From Nitrosospira sp. Nsp2 (GTDB lineage: Bacteria; Pseudomonadota; Gammaproteobacteria; Burkholderiales; Nitrosomonadaceae), in assembly GCF_003050965.1 (NCBI RefSeq), contig NZ_QAOU01000008.1, positions 1 through 64,000 of the forward strand: a stretch of DNA of 64,000 nucleotides. Direction: 5' to 3'. This document shows, one piece after another, positions 53,596 through 63,015 of the stretch; position 1 is the first letter of the stretch; each line of letters opens with the position of its first letter. Under the pieces are notes generated by a model. That model had not been told where the DNA came from. It worked only from the letters and a program-made list of their open reading frames with translations, and did no database searches. The translations under genes were made by a program, and so were the position numbers.

Positions 53596-53769
53596 ACACT
53601 GCAGGTACCCGGGGCTGAGCTACCATCCTATTCCGGTATTTGTACAACCTGATTTCGGCAAGAAATACGAGATTTCGCAAAACGGGTAGAAAATGTTCTA
53701 ATCTTAGGACTGCCCGCGCACACGACTCGTGGCAGCGCCGATTCGATTAATTTACAGAGGAGAATGTCA

Positions 53770-54372
53770 ATGTCCGTACTTGTTACTCATCTTGCCCCTG
53801 ACTTTACCAAGCCCGCCGTCCTTGCGGATGGCACTTTCAATGACGCTTTTAACTTTCATACGGAAATCTCGGGCAAATACGCGATGCTATTCTTTTATCC
53901 GCTCGATTTTACCTTTGTTTGCCCCTCGGAAATTCTCGCTCACTCGCACCGCGCTGAAGAGTTTCGTAAGCGCAACGTGGAGGTTATCGGCGTTTCGGTC
54001 GACTCGCAGTTCACCCATTACGCATGGCGCAACACGCCCATCGATAAAGGCGGCATTGGCCCCGTGGGGATTACGCTGGTCTCGGATGTCGGGGGGGATG
54101 TCATGCATGCATATGGCATCAGCCATCCCGATCACGTCGCTTTGCGAGCTTCCTTCCTGATTGATAAAAACGGCATTGTGCGCCATGAGGTGGTGAACGA
54201 TCTACCGCTCGGGCGGGACGTGGATGAGATGTTGCGCATGGTGGACGCACTGCAATTCCATGAAAGCCATGGTGAGGTTTGCCCCGCCGGCTGGAAAAGC
54301 GGGGAGCCCGGCATGAAGGCGAGTCCGGAGGGGGTAGCCGAATATCTGGGCACTCACGCGGAGCAGCTATGA
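53770..54372 (+). CDS. 2-Cys peroxiredoxin (AhpC/Prx1 type)
   Basis: Thiol peroxidase reducing hydrogen peroxide and organic peroxides. The protein has 200 residues from the ATG at 53770, chosen because GGAG stands 7 bases upstream; the ATG at 53764 is too close to it. The peroxidatic Cys51 lies in PLDFTFVCPSEILAHS, and the resolving Cys in HGEVCPAGWKSG near residue 171. The C-terminal extension is that of typical 2-Cys enzymes. The ferritin-like gene 122 bases downstream suggests a peroxide and iron protection pair. Confidence 0.94.
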   Translation: MSVLVTHLAPDFTKPAVLADGTFNDAFNFHTEISGKYAMLFFYPLDFTFVCPSEILAHSHRAEEFRKRNVEVIGVSVDSQFTHYAWRNTPIDKGGIGPVGITLVSDVGGDVMHAYGISHPDHVALRASFLIDKNGIVRHEVVNDLPLGRDVDEMLRMVDALQFHESHGEVCPAGWKSGEPGMKASPEGVAEYLGTHAEQL

Positions 54373-54494: not shown

Positions 54495-54959
54495 ATGGAC
54501 TTCGATAAAGAAAGAGCGGTTGCAGTATTGAACAGAATCATGGAACTGGAACTGGCTGGGGTGGTGCGGTACACGCACTATTCCTTGATGGTCTACGGCT
54601 ATAATCGGATCCCAGTTGTCGAATGGCTCCAGAAACAGGCCGAAGAGGGTCTGCTACATGCACACAGGGCGGGGGAACTGGTCACGCTGCTGGGCGGATA
54701 TCCGTCGTTGTCGATTGGCCCCCTGCTTGAGACTCACCATCATGACATTGGCGACATACTTAGGGAATCTTTGGCGCATGAAGGCGCATCATGCGCAGCC
54801 TACTATGAGCTTCTGGAACTGACCCAGGGTAAATCGGTACTGTTGGAAGATTACGCGCGGAGCCTGATCGTCGAAGAAGAGATGCATGCCGACGAGGTGA
54901 ATAAAATGCTACGCCGGACCGGTACCACTGGCGTATATGAAGCGCCTAAAGGCCGATAG
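54495..54959 (+). CDS. Ferritin-like / bacterioferritin-type protein
   Basis: A 154-residue four-helix protein of the ferritin-like superfamily, probably storing iron or protecting DNA and proteins from iron-driven oxidation. MDFDKERAVAVLNRIMELEL is followed by VVRYTHYSLMVYG, EEGLLHAHRAGE, ESLAHEGASCAAYYELLEL and IVEEEMHADEV, which supply the expected Glu and His ligands. The second-helix ligand spacing (ExxxH) differs from classical Bfr (ExxH), and the haem-binding Met of Bfr is not obvious. A GGAG Shine-Dalgarno precedes it. It differs clearly from the true bfr at 62.6 kb. Confidence 0.88.
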   Translation: MDFDKERAVAVLNRIMELELAGVVRYTHYSLMVYGYNRIPVVEWLQKQAEEGLLHAHRAGELVTLLGGYPSLSIGPLLETHHHDIGDILRESLAHEGASCAAYYELLELTQGKSVLLEDYARSLIVEEEMHADEVNKMLRRTGTTGVYEAPKGR

Positions 54960-55873: not shown

Positions 55874-56341
55874 TCAACCATTACTCCGGCGCCGGCCTGC
55901 ATATTCGAAAGTAATCGGCTCCAGCAACGGGCGCTCGCACTCCTCGCGCATCAATGCCGCGGTTTCGCCTAAAGCAATTTCACGCAGGCGGCAGCGCATG
56001 TTCAATACCCCATTGCCGGACTCAAAGATTCCACAGGTATGTTGCAGCGCTTCGTCGTGCCGATCACATTCTTCGTTGACTACCTGAGATCCGATATTGT
56101 TCATCACCGCTACAGGCAGATGCGGAAAACGCCGCCTTGCCTCCCGGATCCAGTGCAGGAGATTTACCTGTTGCGTGCAATCCTGAACCGCGCCATCCAC
56201 CAGTACCATATCGTAGGTTTTCAGATCTCGTTGCGGAAAATCCTCCAGCGAAATCCGCTCCAGTCTGTGCCTGGATTTATCCAGCAGCATTTGCAGAATT
56301 TGGCGCGTATCCTGTCTCTCACCCACCAGCAGGATATTCAC
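55874..56341 (-). CDS. Degenerate receiver-domain-like protein coupled to the AHL synthase
   Basis: A 155-residue protein with a response-regulator-like beginning: strand MNILLVGERQDTRQILQMLL and a second strand-plus-aspartate YDMVLVDGAVQD (Asp49). The acidic pair expected near residues 8-9 is reduced to one Glu, and no Thr/Ser plus Lys pair is visible in the later strands. Phosphorylation is therefore uncertain. No output domain is present; the last 50 residues are charged and unassigned. Its ATG overlaps the stop of the luxI-type gene (ATGA), so both are made from one message. The family assignment is tentative. Confidence 0.7.
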   Translation of the reverse strand: MNILLVGERQDTRQILQMLLDKSRHRLERISLEDFPQRDLKTYDMVLVDGAVQDCTQQVNLLHWIREARRRFPHLPVAVMNNIGSQVVNEECDRHDEALQHTCGIFESGNGVLNMRCRLREIALGETAALMREECERPLLEPITFEYAGRRRSNG

Positions 56342-56952
56342 GCTGCTTTCCTCTGCGCATTTTCTGGAAGCGTACCGAATAAGGCGAATTCTGTAATCTC
56401 GTCAATTTCGATGTAGCAAGCCACCGTCATCACCCGACCAATCTTGATCGGGGGACCCAGCCTTGAAACGTTGACTCCGAGCCTGCGTACCAATCTCTCT
56501 ACCGCAACGGTCGTCACGGTGACATAGCGCTTGATGCCGTTATGCTGGGCGAAGCGGAATAAGGTCTGCATCATCTTTACGGGAATTTCGCTGAAACCGA
56601 AACCGGCGCTTTCATACTTCGGTACCGTAACCGCGAAGCGGCTCAGCTCCCAGACATCGGATTGGTGCGGCGCGTGCTGTCCATGCAACAGTTGTGGAAA
56701 CGTGTCCCTCAGCATATTAGGGCCCATGGTCGGGAGTAGCCGCCAGCAGCCCAGCACCTCATCTTCGTCGCCTTTTGCAAGTACATAAATGGGATCAGCG
56801 TGGTCGAACTCGTCGTGTTCCATTCCATTATCCGTGGTGACCTCCCAGCCTAACCGATCGTGGAAAACTTCATGTCGCAGCCGGTACATTCCTGTCGCTG
56901 CCCGCTGATCCAAAGAACCATTCCCGTGTTGCGCAAGCATGATCTGTCCCAT
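56338..56952 (-). CDS. Acyl-homoserine-lactone synthase (LuxI family)
   Basis: Makes an acyl-homoserine-lactone signal from S-adenosylmethionine and acyl-ACP. The 204-residue protein carries the invariant LuxI residues in order: Arg26 and Phe30 (YRLRHEVF), Trp36, Glu45, Asp47 and Asp50 (MEHDEFD), Arg71 (CWRLLPT), Phe85, Glu102 and Arg105 (WELSRFAV). It resembles the synthase known from Nitrosospira multiformis. A start at the ATG four codons in (56940) is also possible. A lux box lies 66 bases upstream. No luxR is adjacent; the stop overlaps the receiver-like gene instead. The acyl chain cannot be predicted here. Confidence 0.93.
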   Translation of the reverse strand: MGQIMLAQHGNGSLDQRAATGMYRLRHEVFHDRLGWEVTTDNGMEHDEFDHADPIYVLAKGDEDEVLGCWRLLPTMGPNMLRDTFPQLLHGQHAPHQSDVWELSRFAVTVPKYESAGFGFSEIPVKMMQTLFRFAQHNGIKRYVTVTTVAVERLVRRLGVNVSRLGPPIKIGRVMTVACYIEIDEITEFALFGTLPENAQRKAA

Positions 56953-57017
56953 TTGTTTCGCATCCGTCGTTGGTTATGACGGTGCTATGAAACAACGGAA
57001 CGAGACCCCGGGGATAG

Positions 57018-57033
57018 CTGTAAAATCTTACAG
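57018..57033 (-). promoter_or_regulatory. Lux box upstream of the AHL synthase gene
   Basis: The sequence CTGTAAAATCTTACAG has the exact lux-box core arms CTGTA and TACAG separated by six bases. Over 20 bases (57016-57035) I count 15 matches to the Vibrio fischeri luxI box. Its near edge is 66 bases from the synthase ATG, a usual distance for LuxR-type activation. I could not identify a clear -10 box. Confidence 0.85.
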
Positions 57034-57050
57034 GAACAAATGCTGAGTAT

Positions 57051-57606: not shown

Positions 57607-59784
57607 TTAATTGAAATTGAAACGGATCGAACCGTACGCGCTAAGCGGGTCCCCAGGCAATGCACCGGCAAACGTCGCGTTGGTAAAGTAGGTCTTGTCC
57701 GTCAGGTTTCTGATATTGACCGCGAGATCCATTCTTTTTACCCGATAGGAAACCGCAGCATCAAAAACGACATAAGACGGCACCCTCAAAAGGTTCAGGC
57801 TATCGGCAAACGTATCGCCCTTGTACGTTACCCCGAAGCCGAATGTGAGACCGCGGGCCAAGCCGCTTTGGATCTGATAAGTACTCCATAAGTTGGCCGC
57901 GTGAGTAGCGACTCCAACAGGCCGCGTCCCGTAAACGCTTCCGGTGATGCCAAGAACGGCATTGGTAGCCACATTGAGCGCCAACGTCTCAGGATCCATC
58001 CATACGCCGCTACCGATAATATTCAAGCCCGCCAAAGGTCTGAAACCCAGCGAAAGTTCCACTCCCCTCGATCGATCCTTGCCATCCTGGGTAGCCTGCC
58101 CCCCCGAACCGGGCAAAATGACGAAGTAGTTGTTGCGGCTGGTTTGAAAAAGCGCCACGTTTAAATCGGCCTTGCCGTCCAGCAGAGAGGTTTTTGCGCC
58201 CACTTCTATCTGATCGGATGTTTCCGGGGCGCGGGAGACTGCCTGCGCTTCCGTGGCGAGATTAATAAACGCGCCGGTGCTGTAGCCGGCGTAAAACGCC
58301 AGATTTTCGGTGGGCTGGTATACACCCCCGGTTGAATAGGTTGTCAAGGATTTGGTCTGAACGATCTCGCGATAGCCGTAACTTCCCGATACCAGCTGAA
58401 ATCCCTTGTCGCTGTACTGTACCAGATCGTTTCTTATTCCGAGACGGAGCTTGAATTGCTTCGTCAAGTCTATCTGATCCTGCGCATAGAACGACGTTTG
58501 ATCGCTTGTAATCCTGCGATCAAAGATGGGCCTGCGCGTGAGTCCGTTCAAGGAGGTTTCTACATTTACAGGATTAAAAACATTGATGGACGATAAGGTG
58601 TAATCACCGCGCACCGTATTGATGTCCGTGTTCTTGTATTCAAATCCTCCCAAAAACGTGTGTTTAACCGGACCAGTGGTTGTTTTCCATATGAATTCGT
58701 TCTGCAATATGGTGTAACCCGCCCTATCGAATTGCTGACGCGCGTCACGCCCGGTCGACACACCGAGCGCATTCCCTTGATTGCCGCCGCCGTTTCGCAC
58801 GATCTCAAGGGTACGCGCATCGTATACGAATGCGGTACGCATGCTCAAGTCATCTGATATTGCCCAGTTATGGGTAAGTCCCAGGCGATTGATCGTATGG
58901 TCCGTCTTGTTGAACGGGCTGTAGTACCGGTTATTGCGCGACACATTGGCGATATTGGCATTGAAATCGAAAAGTATGCCGTAGTTATCCGGCTTGATCT
59001 TCATTTCCCGGTGATCGTAGTCAATCAGGAGCGTTTTATTGTCGGCCAACCGCCAGAGCAGGCTAGGGGACGCTTCAAAAACATTGCGTTCAAGCCCGCG
59101 AAATCCGTCGGTATGCTCAAGGTTGCCAATGGCGCGGCCGGCGAAACGCTGACCCAGAGGGCCCGTCAAATCGACAAACCCATTCCGGGTTCCGAAACTG
59201 CCAAGCATGGTGCCTGCAGTCAACTCGAACTGGTTTTGCGGCTTTTTGGTAATGATGTTCATGCTGCCCCCCGGTCCGGCAACACCGAACAGCGCTGACC
59301 CAGGCCCTTTCAATACTTCGATGCGGTCAACGTCATACATCGTGCGGAAGTAACTGTTTTGGGCAGACCCGTCCGGGATATCGTCGCGTAAAAAACTGAG
59401 GGAAAGACCGCGCGAAGTAAAACTGTTCCCGAACCCATACCCGCCTCCCATCAGCGGCTGAACACTGGGTACGTTGCGCATGGCATCGTTCATGGTGATG
59501 GCCCCTTGCTCCTTTAACACGCTGGCCGGCACGACGTCGACGGTAGCGGGGATATCGCGTAGTGGAGTATCGGTCTTGCTCCCTGTACGCGCTACATCCT
59601 CCAGCGTGCCGGGACGAACCCGGCCCGTGGTGACTTTTATCTCCGGCAAGGGGTTATGTTTTTCCTTGTCGACCCGGGTCTCCTGAGCAACCGCGCTTAA
59701 CGGCGTTGCCATTATCCCCAGATACAATAAGGTAATAGGGCCAATCCGTCGCGATCTGCGTTTGAAACTGCGAAAATGTTTCAC
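57607..59784 (-). CDS. TonB-dependent siderophore receptor
   Basis: Outer-membrane gated channel for a ferric siderophore or similar chelate. The 725-residue protein has a signal sequence (PITLLYLGIMATPLSAVAQE) and a possible TonB box EIKVTTGR. The plug domain reads IPATVDVVPASVL, NVPSVQPLMGG, SFTSRGLSLSF and RIEVLKGPGSALFGV. A beta-barrel follows, ending in the outer-membrane signature GSIRFNFN. The start codon is GTG with a weak purine-rich site upstream. It follows the PepSY-protein gene on the same strand after 167 bases. The ligand cannot be told from sequence, and I see no Fur box directly upstream. Confidence 0.93.
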   Translation of the reverse strand: MKHFRSFKRRSRRIGPITLLYLGIMATPLSAVAQETRVDKEKHNPLPEIKVTTGRVRPGTLEDVARTGSKTDTPLRDIPATVDVVPASVLKEQGAITMNDAMRNVPSVQPLMGGGYGFGNSFTSRGLSLSFLRDDIPDGSAQNSYFRTMYDVDRIEVLKGPGSALFGVAGPGGSMNIITKKPQNQFELTAGTMLGSFGTRNGFVDLTGPLGQRFAGRAIGNLEHTDGFRGLERNVFEASPSLLWRLADNKTLLIDYDHREMKIKPDNYGILFDFNANIANVSRNNRYYSPFNKTDHTINRLGLTHNWAISDDLSMRTAFVYDARTLEIVRNGGGNQGNALGVSTGRDARQQFDRAGYTILQNEFIWKTTTGPVKHTFLGGFEYKNTDINTVRGDYTLSSINVFNPVNVETSLNGLTRRPIFDRRITSDQTSFYAQDQIDLTKQFKLRLGIRNDLVQYSDKGFQLVSGSYGYREIVQTKSLTTYSTGGVYQPTENLAFYAGYSTGAFINLATEAQAVSRAPETSDQIEVGAKTSLLDGKADLNVALFQTSRNNYFVILPGSGGQATQDGKDRSRGVELSLGFRPLAGLNIIGSGVWMDPETLALNVATNAVLGITGSVYGTRPVGVATHAANLWSTYQIQSGLARGLTFGFGVTYKGDTFADSLNLLRVPSYVVFDAAVSYRVKRMDLAVNIRNLTDKTYFTNATFAGALPGDPLSAYGSIRFNFN

Positions 59785-59859
59785 TTGTAGTCTCTCTGTT
59801 GTTTTGTTGTGAGTTGGCTGGCTACAAGCGGAGGGCTTACTGGCTGGCTACGAACGCCT

Positions 59860-59881
59860 CTGCCCCGGTTGAGGGGGGCAG
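59860..59881. repeat. GC-rich hairpin between PepSY and TonB receptor genes
   Basis: CTGCCCC and GGGGCAG pair perfectly around an 8-base loop. No T tract follows on either strand. In the leftward transcript it would fold about 75 bases before the receptor start, where it might affect stability or relative expression. Short direct repeats of GGCTGGCTAC lie next to it (about 59812-59851). Confidence 0.5.
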
Positions 59882-59951
59882 GGACGGAAAAATTTTAGAT
59901 ATTTGCTCTTCGACCTCAGGATTGATGTTCAACTGTCGAAAAAAACTGCTT

Positions 59952-60707
59952 TCATGACAGCGACAGGGTCGTAAGCATCAGAATGGCTGACGCGGTGAGC
60001 GTCGTACCGATCAGTCCCGCAGCCACAAGCCGGGGTCCATGCAAGCGGCTCCATAGCAGCGTGCCGGTTATTGCCAGCACCAGTAAACCGCCAGCCAGCG
60101 TGTCGGTAAGCAATATCCAGGCATTCGACATACCGCTCCCTTTGTGAAAGTTGGCCAGTGTTGCCCAGGCATTGGCTTCCTTTTGCTCGATATGAGCCTC
60201 AGTATCGCCCTGCCAGTATTCGGCATTCAGGCTGAGATTGGGCGTGGTCAGCGTAACGCGCCAGTTCTCGGGTTGCACTATTTGACCGCCCCCCCAGGGC
60301 ACCGGCCCGCCCGGCTTCTTCTGGACGCGGGATTTGGCGTGCGGCAGTTTAAACTTCACGCGCAGCCATGCCTCCAACGCTTCGGCAGATTGCAGACTCG
60401 CGACGGGCGGAGCCACTACCTGGCGAGTTTCGTGCTGACTGGCAAGCGGGATTTTCATTTCATTGCGATGGTTCAACAGAATGCCCGAGGCGCCGAACAC
60501 CAAGCCAAGCACTGCGCCCCAGAGTCCTACCCACGCGTGTGTCCGCCGCAGCCAGACGAGAAAGCGGCCCCGCTTCATGCTAAGCGGCAGAAACAGATAC
60601 CCGCGTGGCTCGGCCGCCGGTGGCAGGCCACCGTTCTGCCCGCGAGCACGTTGCTCGGTTGCCTCAGTCGGCTCAGTTGGGCGGGCATGCGACTGAGACA
60701 TGCTCAT
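59952..60707 (-). CDS. PepSY-associated membrane protein, iron-uptake linked
   Basis: A 251-residue inner-membrane protein of the PepSY-TM type, commonly found beside TonB-dependent siderophore receptors, where related proteins are proposed to reduce ferric siderophores. A cytoplasmic, Pro/Glu-rich start is followed by the family motif LRRTHAWVGLWGAVLGLVFG, then ASGILLNHR. A periplasmic domain leads to HKGSGMSNAWILLTDTLAGG, then two more membrane helices. Its start overlaps the upstream stop by four bases (ATGA). With three to four helices it is at the small end of the family. Confidence 0.85.
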   Translation of the reverse strand: MSMSQSHARPTEPTEATEQRARGQNGGLPPAAEPRGYLFLPLSMKRGRFLVWLRRTHAWVGLWGAVLGLVFGASGILLNHRNEMKIPLASQHETRQVVAPPVASLQSAEALEAWLRVKFKLPHAKSRVQKKPGGPVPWGGGQIVQPENWRVTLTTPNLSLNAEYWQGDTEAHIEQKEANAWATLANFHKGSGMSNAWILLTDTLAGGLLVLAITGTLLWSRLHGPRLVAAGLIGTTLTASAILMLTTLSLS

Positions 60708-61351
60708 TTGTAAAGACTGAGCGTAACCTTGTGACTCTCTACCGCGTATGCCTTGCCCTCGAATTCACCTGGCTTATTCAGCTCATATTTGGCCTCGACG
60801 ACGTATAAGCCGGATTCCGGTGGCGAAAAAGAAGCTTCACCTTTCTCATCCGTACGCAAATGCTTCTCCCATCCACTGGGGGCGATAACAACAATCTCAG
60901 CCTTGGGCACGGGCTCCCCCTTGAAAGTCAGGCGCAGCAGGTTGCCGCTGGCCTGTAAATCGAGAGGCAAGCTGCCTCCGTTACCCAAACGCGCATACAG
61001 AAAGCGTCTCTGGACGGGCGCCGGAGCAGCACCCTCCTGAGGCTCGCGTATGGGCTGGCGGCGTGCCTGAACCAGTACCGTCGCGCCAGCCGGTAGCGAA
61101 AAGTGCGTATTTTCACGGCTTGGGCTGATCGTTTTTGCCGTTCCTGCCTGGTCGATGATCGTGGCCTCCGGGTCAACGATACTGTCGAGCCTTCCCGGTG
61201 AGGTTTCCCGCAGGTTCTCCGCATATTCGCCAAAATAAAGCTTGCTGGCCGGCGTTCCGCTCTCCAACCATAATGCATGGGCTCCAGCGTGAAGGCTGAG
61301 CGCACAGCCGAGGACGGCCGCAGTGCCGGAGACAAATGAGGCAAGTTTCAT
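60704..61351 (-). CDS. DUF4198-like periplasmic protein
   Basis: A 215-residue exported protein with signal MKLASFVSGTAAVLGCALSL ending near the Ala-His-Ala segment, then HALWLESG, typical of DUF4198 proteins often found with metal-uptake genes. The C-terminal half looks like an immunoglobulin-type beta domain (LTFKGEPVPKAEIVVIAPSG, ESGLYVVEAKYEL). No catalytic residues are evident. It is the first of three leftward genes with the PepSY protein (overlapping stop/start) and the TonB receptor, suggesting one uptake module. The function is inferred only from context. Confidence 0.75.
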   Translation of the reverse strand: MKLASFVSGTAAVLGCALSLHAGAHALWLESGTPASKLYFGEYAENLRETSPGRLDSIVDPEATIIDQAGTAKTISPSRENTHFSLPAGATVLVQARRQPIREPQEGAAPAPVQRRFLYARLGNGGSLPLDLQASGNLLRLTFKGEPVPKAEIVVIAPSGWEKHLRTDEKGEASFSPPESGLYVVEAKYELNKPGEFEGKAYAVESHKVTLSLYK

Positions 61352-61523
61352 GTTTTTCCTTTAGATTGATTTTTGGTTATTTATTTATAGACGCGTAGGA
61401 TAGTCGAAATGCACGAGCATTTGAGTCCGACAACAAGATCAGCGGACGCGTTTATATCATGCTTAAGGTTCATCGGCTAGGGTCTTTGGCTAGCAAACTG
61501 CGTTTTACCGGGACGAACGAGGG

Positions 61524-62444
61524 TCAGTCGACTGGAACTGGTGTCCGGTCGCCGGCCCGGACTGCTACCAGCTCAGCGAGCGTGGCGACACCCTTGCGGA
61601 AGGTCGATATATCGGAACGGTCGAGCACGACGTAAGGCGTGCCGGAGTATTTGCAGTAGCGTTTTGTCGTGAAGTAAGCTTCGTGATTTACGCAATCGAC
61701 CGGACATACCACCATGTCGGCCTGGGCAAGCAGCTTGGATAGCCTCCGGCTGCTGGTGGGCCGAGGATCGCTTCGATAAAAGAATAAAGTGGCCCCCGAA
61801 GCTTCAACCACGCGGCGGTACTGGGGATATAGGGCTGCTTTTCCCCCCACGCATAGGACCTTCCGCTCGGCAAGATCAAAACTGCCCTTCAGTACCGCCT
61901 TTTTCCTGTCGCACGCGGCGCGTTCCGATGCGGCCATTAACCCCCTTCCGGCCCTTTTCGTAGCGGCGCCCAACCTCGAGCAGGAGGTGTCGGGGTTCTT
62001 GACGAGCGGAACCCAATCTGTTTCATGCGGCACGGAAATGCTCGCATCGGCGAGCTTCCGCTCAAGCAGATCAATACGTTCCAGTAATGCTTGACGGTCA
62101 TCAGCAATTACCCGACCCGCCGCACCCCTGGTCAGCAGACCCGCTCCGTTACCCGCACCTGCCTGCGTACGTGTTGTCGGAGCCGGTCCAGCGCGACCCG
62201 AGCGCCACCGTGTGCCCGCAACACGGAAAATTTGTTTGATTACTCTCCCAAGAGAAAACACGTTCGGAAGAATGCTCGGCTTTTTCGCGCTACCTGAGCG
62301 TTCCTGCGAGTGGGATACCAGAACGGCGGAGATGGCTTTTATGCCCCGCAGAGGGGCTAACAGAATTGAGCCAGCGCGAGGCGCTTTTAATACCAGAAAG
62401 GGGAGGGTGACGCTCGAAACCGCCGAGGTTGTTATCTGTTCCAC
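61524..62444 (-). CDS. DUF2325 domain protein
   Basis: A protein of up to 306 residues with a C-terminal DUF2325 domain: RKVLCVGGKAALYPQYRRVV, FFYRSDPRPTSSRRL, ADMVVCPVDCVNHEAYFTTK and GTPYVVLDRSDISTF. The N-terminal 130 residues are basic and low in complexity, with a coiled-coil-like ALLERIDLLERKLADA before the domain. The first codon is GTG without a good ribosome binding site, so the true start may be further in. DUF2325 proteins have no settled role. It follows bfr by 107 bases on the same strand, linking it loosely to the iron genes. Confidence 0.75.
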   Translation of the reverse strand: MEQITTSAVSSVTLPFLVLKAPRAGSILLAPLRGIKAISAVLVSHSQERSGSAKKPSILPNVFSLGRVIKQIFRVAGTRWRSGRAGPAPTTRTQAGAGNGAGLLTRGAAGRVIADDRQALLERIDLLERKLADASISVPHETDWVPLVKNPDTSCSRLGAATKRAGRGLMAASERAACDRKKAVLKGSFDLAERKVLCVGGKAALYPQYRRVVEASGATLFFYRSDPRPTSSRRLSKLLAQADMVVCPVDCVNHEAYFTTKRYCKYSGTPYVVLDRSDISTFRKGVATLAELVAVRAGDRTPVPVD

Positions 62445-62550
62445 AGCCCATACTCCGCGAAAAGTCAGAAAAAAGCTGGCTTGCCGTCGGTACAGGCTGG
62501 CTGGCTGAAAGCCGCTGGCTTAGAAGAAAGCCAGCGACAGCGGACAAAAC

Positions 62551-63015
62551 TTACATCTGGCTTTGCAACCAGTTCTGGACACCGACTTTCTGCATGACTT
62601 CTAACTGGGTTTCCAGCCAGTCGATATGTTCTTCTGTGTCTTCCAGAATTTCCTTGAAAATCTCCCGCGAAACGTAGTCCTTCGCTGCTTCACACGCGGC
62701 AATCCCGCCGAGCAATGTCTCGCGCGCGGTCATCTCCGCCCTGAGGTCGCACTCGACACACTCTTCTGCCTTCTCGCCGATCAACAGCTTGCCAAGCTCT
62801 TGCAGATTGGGCAGACCTTCCAGAAACAGGATACGCTCAATCAATGCGTCGGCATGCTTCATCTCCTCGATCGATTCCTCGTATTCATGCTTTCCAAGGC
62901 TGTCGAAGCCCCAGTTCTTGTACATGCGGGCGTGGAGAAAATACTGATTGATGGCGGTCAGTTCATGTTGAAGCTGACGGTTTAGCCATTGAATAATGTC
63001 TGCGCTACTCTTCAT
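62551..63015 (-). CDS. bfr: Bacterioferritin
   Basis: Haem-containing iron-storage protein forming a 24-subunit shell. The 154-residue protein aligns throughout with E. coli Bfr: AINQYFLHARMYKNWGFDSL, ESIEEMKHADALIERILFLE (ferroxidase Glu51 and His54, haem ligand Met52), GLPNLQELGKLLIGE, and EILEDTEEHIDWLETQLEVM. A GAGGAGG Shine-Dalgarno lies 6 bases before the ATG. It follows bfd by 42 bases, and with hemP forms an apparent iron-responsive operon. Confidence 0.96.
   Translation of the reverse strand: MKSSADIIQWLNRQLQHELTAINQYFLHARMYKNWGFDSLGKHEYEESIEEMKHADALIERILFLEGLPNLQELGKLLIGEKAEECVECDLRAEMTARETLLGGIAACEAAKDYVSREIFKEILEDTEEHIDWLETQLEVMQKVGVQNWLQSQM

Follow-up and report, generated by a model that had tools for sequence, protein, structure and literature searches.

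A complete LuxI/LuxR circuit whose two genes have been parted in the Nitrosospira lineage, and whose box-led promoters are directed to cyclic-di-GMP and matrix genes, is the reading of this DNA that we favor, with a probability of about 0.7 for the picture as a whole. It is built from gene content, boxes, promoter geometry, co-occurrence and conservation, all of them read from sequence. The window, by which we mean the whole 64,000-nucleotide stretch analysed (G000:C8:1–64000), is part of a 111.6-kb contig in a genome of 3.46 Mb and 21 contigs that is 99.96% complete.

Table 1. Positions of luxI, orf2, luxR, the luxI promoter elements and two box-linked genes
Feature	Position	Strand	Remarks
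luxI, AHL synthase, 204 aa	56338..56952	–	PF00765, 4.3e-39; LasI, 9.4e-47
orf2, 155 aa	55874..56341	–	4-bp overlap with the luxI stop; weak resemblance to receivers in the N-terminal half
lux box core CTGTAAGATTTTACAG	57018..57033 (20-bp form, 57016–57035)	–	upstream of luxI; no other exact CTGTN8ACAG match in the window
putative luxI –10 hexamer, TTTCAT	56987..56992	–	starts 26 nt after the box
luxR, 244 aa	C8:92560–93294, outside the window		Autoind_bind, 9.4e-43; GerE, 6.5e-19
PEP-CTERM/exosortase acyltransferase, TIGR03694	L103:2582–3367	–	box-linked; start 641 bp from the box; hexamer TCTTAT
tyrosinase-domain protein, PF00264	L124:2670–4463	+	box-adjacent in 9 other Nitrosospira genomes

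The synthase itself is ordinary; it is the arrangement of its gene that is unusual. LuxI matches the PF00765 profile over its full length with 134.4 bits, above the curated cut-off of 24, and the nearest solved chain is LasI (1ro5), matched at residues 4–194. The residues R26 (the arginine of the LR..VF block), F30, W36, D47, D50, R71, E102, S104 and R105 (counting from the start codon), which we take to be the invariant residues of the LuxI family, are all found; R24 is variable. The profile match, the similarity to LasI and the residue check together bear out the intact synthase proposed in the preliminary description, and the enzyme would be expected to produce an AHL. LuxI also matches the PEP-CTERM/exosortase acyltransferase family TIGR03694, below the cut-off for that family. 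Its relatives at 15 named loci, every one from Nitrosospira or Nitrosovibrio, are 85–95% identical, and the genome falls with Nitrosospira, a genus of soil ammonia oxidisers. By eye, the region upstream of luxI holds a TonB-dependent-receptor-like ORF (57607–59784), small membrane ORFs and a bacterioferritin-like ORF (62551–63015), and the stretch 57607–63015 looks like an iron gene neighbourhood; beyond orf2 lie a second ferritin-like ORF (54495–54959) and a peroxiredoxin-like ORF (53764–54372).

The only PF03472 match in the genome (C8:92605–93042) falls beyond the window, in which we found no autoinducer-binding LuxR and none of the genome's 12 GerE matches. The protein carries both domains expected of an AHL receptor (Table 1), LasR is its nearest relative among solved chains, and the residues WYDPWG/ELG, presumably the ligand and DNA residues of LuxR receptors, are present. 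It is encoded on the same contig as luxI, ∼36 kb away, and is likely to be the cognate receptor. The preliminary description had placed the LuxR-type regulator outside the window, correctly, and the genome-wide search that it proposed returns exactly one PF03472 protein; with this single gene found on the contig of luxI, we dropped the ideas of a LuxR solo and of a receptor from an unknown source.

The distance between the two genes is a property of the genus. A LuxI match is present in all 23 genus genomes surveyed (in G015, which is 80% complete, it is spread over two frames, L042 and L043), and 22 of them also have a LuxR match above the cut-off, with at most one per genome; the 260-contig assembly G013 has none that high. 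Both genes share a contig in 20 genomes; in these, among which G012 belongs to the same species as the window, luxI and luxR are divergent in every case and lie 28.0–42.0 kb apart, not side by side as in the classical arrangement. The genes are on separate contigs in G015 and G019. The LuxR frame of G020 (L069) stops at 159 aa, close to the end of its contig, which may reflect a broken gene or an assembly error.

Relatives outside the genus suggest how this arrangement arose. Across 125 family genomes, strong LuxI matches are confined to Nitrosospira and to four of the nine genomes of one sister genus; the remaining PF00765 matches, taken as a group, are below 33 bits. In those four genomes luxR, luxI and orf2 form a tandem, and a box occupies the gap between luxR and luxI. 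The same tandem and spacer box occur in G425 and G253, members of other families which, together with two Nitrosospira, are the only four matches to an ORF2 profile among 399 genomes drawn from the order. The split looks derived within the Nitrosospira lineage because these four sister-genus and two other-family genomes keep the three genes adjacent; this, too, corrects the picture of an unknown LuxR solo. Alternatively, a Nitrosospira ancestor could have gained or regained luxI-orf2 and luxR separately, so that they never formed one cluster there, a history that would leave the circuit unchanged. We consider this unlikely. In its favor, the LuxI of G425 is 73% identical, closer than the 66–69% of the sister genus, and the outgroup clusters share no neighbours beyond luxR, luxI and orf2 with the window's contig (the one contig compared). 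Against it, the three genes stay together in all six relatives outside the genus, and LuxI and LuxR distances correlate with an r of 0.93 over 26 genomes, a value uncorrected for shared descent that includes the truncated G020 LuxR.

The third member of the cluster, orf2, was missed in the preliminary description. The 4-bp overlap between its start and the luxI stop is found here and at 14 of the 15 named loci, the mean column identity of ORF2 is 74% (16 members), and the gene also adjoins luxI in six genomes outside the genus. No Pfam family, the PF00072 receiver profile included, matches ORF2 at 0.001, and a comparison with NCBIfam gave a single, unconvincing line (0.26). The predicted model is weak (pLDDT 57), and a fold search with it returned receivers among its matches, the top matches being other proteins and none reaching an E of 0.001. 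An ordinary receiver is not what Pfam or NCBIfam profiles support. To have ORF2 tune LuxI or LuxR would be guesswork; quorum-sensing modulators of the RsaM or RsaL type are conceivable comparisons.

All 22 luxI promoters compared carry the box, displaced upstream and with two mismatches in L025, which confirms the near-perfect lux box described for this promoter. Loose matching carries no signal alone, because CTGTN8ACAG with one mismatch gives 21 matches in the window where 15.3 are expected, and the one-mismatch search was discarded as evidence. Genome-wide, the bare CTGTN8ACAG is mildly enriched (32 sites, compared with 22 for the reversed control). The exact 16-mer CTGTAAGATTTTACAG occurs at three places in the genome, with five more at one mismatch and another five at two; at three mismatches the control likewise matches. 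At no more than one mismatch, the box is present in 27/27 luxI-bearing family genomes and in 4/98 others (one each), whereas the reversed control matches in 2/125.

Our sample comprised 80 regions with boxes from 12 other Nitrosospira genomes and 10 from this genome, drawn from the part of the boxes that was listed. G002 contributed one region, and the sample omitted three listed G010 sites, one G014 site, the luxI sites and the genomes G006, G013 and G015–G022. Of 87 boxes with at most one mismatch, 83 lie outside ORFs of at least 120 aa, which cover 77% of those loci; the four exceptions include the PAS-GGDEF box of this genome, which falls within a different ORF, at its 3' end. The two letters flanking the box on each side, A[C/G] and [C/G]T, are conserved and were absent from the search query. 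Because orthologues make up many of these boxes, the counts lack independence. The scan for further boxes that had been suggested thus points to about ten well-supported boxes in the genome. Positive feedback on the synthase, as first proposed, remains likely from the conserved luxI box, but that box would not be solely a feedback site. The original picture of a synthase with its own box and a LuxR encoded elsewhere is thus supported in part; it overlooked the overlapping gene at 55874–56341, the receptor ∼36 kb away and these additional boxes.

The sequence that follows the box has a regular geometry. A block like CCGTTGTYTCATA trails the box in the 22 luxI promoters, and a similar block is present on the acyltransferase side of the box in 11 genomes. 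Among 85 non-luxI boxes with at most two mismatches (G012 and L111 left aside), 62 have CTA after the box on one side, 9 have it on both sides and 14 on neither. The CTA side has T, T, A and T at nucleotides 25, 27, 29 and 30 in 88, 87, 91 and 96% of cases, respectively, and the non-CTA side shows no letter preference at these positions. The hexamer T.T[AC]AT starts at nucleotides 24–26 at 61/85 boxes (one-sided at 60, two-sided at one), many of which are orthologous, compared with 0.94% of 20,000 random places. Class II lux promoters have geometry of this kind, and the box promoters resemble them. The one-sided hexamer also suggests which adjoining gene is driven.

In this genome the strict hexamer stands behind eight boxes, those of luxI, a PAS kinase, a hybrid kinase, a polysaccharide pyruvyl transferase, a 138-aa protein, a GT4 glycosyltransferase, a PAS-GGDEF protein and cheW, the last with a hexamer on both sides. 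Imperfect hexamers follow the box of the acyltransferase and that of a protein with a below-cut-off ATP-grasp match, and sites L106 and L111, which have no hexamer after the box, are doubtful; C1:806143, at two mismatches, is a candidate site. At C2:174524 an 854-aa right-hand ORF was dropped as the target because the hexamer points the other way, toward the 138-aa protein, which has no Pfam match. The long stretch ahead of the acyltransferase gene might have held a small RNA, an idea rejected because an Rfam search of five sources yielded nothing but tRNAs.

The same targets recur across the genus. In the 12 nearly fully sampled genomes, a box lies beside the PAS histidine kinase gene in 12/12, at rnr or the acyltransferase gene in 12/12 (both seen in 10) and beside cheW in 10/12. 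A tyrosinase-like gene, which is not among the box targets observed in this genome, adjoins a box in 8/12 and in G002. These observations bear on the possibility that the luxI box alone matters, the others being mostly weak, such that the circuit does little past self-regulation. The luxI-bearing sister-genus genomes have one box match apiece, at luxI, and in Nitrospira the majority of the predicted lux boxes assayed gave no response, with 2/61 responding and one more when a sigma factor was added, according to the portion of that study available (PMC8553950). The recurrence of targets, the conserved outer letters, the position of the boxes between genes and a hexamer kept at a fixed distance on one side nevertheless make so limited a circuit improbable. 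We give far less credence still to the idea that the boxes are read by another regulator and LuxR acts elsewhere: luxR has no box at three or fewer mismatches in its own 3.4-kb locus, but box presence tracks luxI over the 125 genomes and the box of the relatives sits between luxR and luxI.

The genes behind the boxes suggest what a LuxR-driven set of promoters of this kind would do. The PAS kinase, response regulator and REC-GGDEF-EAL genes overlap one another; the hybrid kinase gene is followed after 12 bp by a REC-GGDEF gene; the cheW run reads CheW-CheR-CheW-MCP-CheA-CheB-REC/GAF/GGDEF/EAL; and the acyltransferase gene has a dCache-GGDEF-EAL ORF downstream of it on the same strand. Downstream of nine oriented boxes, 5/23 GGDEF genes fall within 10 kb (0.27 expected, P 7e-6), 4/23 within 6 kb (P 2e-5) and 1/23 within 3 kb (P 0.08), in a test that was picked after the genes had been seen and whose boxes take in the two with imperfect hexamers and omit that of the pyruvyl transferase. 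In the one sister-genus genome examined, the orthologue of the last chemosensory gene (53% over 991 positions) lies behind luxI-orf2, and in G425 a PAS-GGDEF-EAL gene occupies this place. From these neighbours we infer that the AHL circuit feeds cyclic-di-GMP and matrix genes.

The favored working model is as follows. LuxI would make an AHL that is bound by the single LuxR, which would recognize A[C/G]CTGTAARATYTTACAG[C/G]T and activate class-II-like promoters whose –10-like hexamer, TYTMAT, begins ∼25 nt beyond the core of the box. A promoter of this kind would drive luxI-orf2 and so provide positive feedback. About nine others are predicted to drive the histidine kinase-response regulator-GGDEF/EAL run, the hybrid kinase-REC/GGDEF run, the PAS-GGDEF protein, a putative CheW-CheR-CheW-MCP-CheA-CheB-GGDEF/EAL operon, glycan genes, the exosortase-type acyltransferase and two little-characterised proteins. 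The outcome would probably be a density-dependent shift in cyclic-di-GMP and surface matrix. A bolder version, to which we give somewhat less than even odds, is that AHL signalling in Nitrosospira mainly serves a cyclic-di-GMP programme. The box would then have expanded after the split from a single autoregulatory site to about ten kinase, chemosensory, GGDEF/EAL and matrix operons, and ORF2, behind luxI in each lineage examined, would be a new receiver-like partner in the circuit.

The conserved box and the oriented promoters yield a short, testable target list for AHL signalling in Nitrosospira, and the targets point to surface-associated life and cyclic-di-GMP. The genus also offers a synthase–receptor pair retained throughout although its genes are not neighbours, beside relatives in which they are adjacent. 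An AHL synthase of Nitrosospira multiformis was reportedly described by Gao in 2014, and Mellbye is said to have surveyed quorum sensing in nitrifiers in 2017. A review table (PMC9095614) gives AHLs for N. multiformis and N. briensis, names no target genes and enters the function in N. briensis as 'Unknown', and the N. briensis genome paper (PMC4964001) yielded no passage for quorum-sensing or matrix terms. The titles and abstract openings listed for Nitrosospira quorum sensing, the lux box, exosortase and cyclic-di-GMP describe neither the split nor the regulon. Nitrosospira AHLs were thus already on record, and what is added here is a split pair with a well-marked predicted regulon.

The closest known system is the N. 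multiformis synthase attributed to Gao (2014), which is the same enzyme in the same genus as the LuxI of the window. LasI and LasR of Pseudomonas aeruginosa are the best solved relatives of the two proteins; unlike them, the proteins of this genome are encoded ∼36 kb apart, with orf2 after luxI. Very few examples of genetically unlinked luxI and luxR are counted in the available part of one review (PMC10134790), and the distance here is conserved across a genus, with adjacent-gene relatives at hand. In the Nitrospira NspI/NspR1 system, as far as the accessible text of its report goes (PMC8553950), a reporter showed a lux box common to the synthase gene and a GGDEF/EAL gene, a feature also predicted here. 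Nitrospira belongs to another phylum and its box is ACCTGGCGGTTCCGCCAGGT, whereas in this genome several separate predicted boxes lead to GGDEF/EAL genes.
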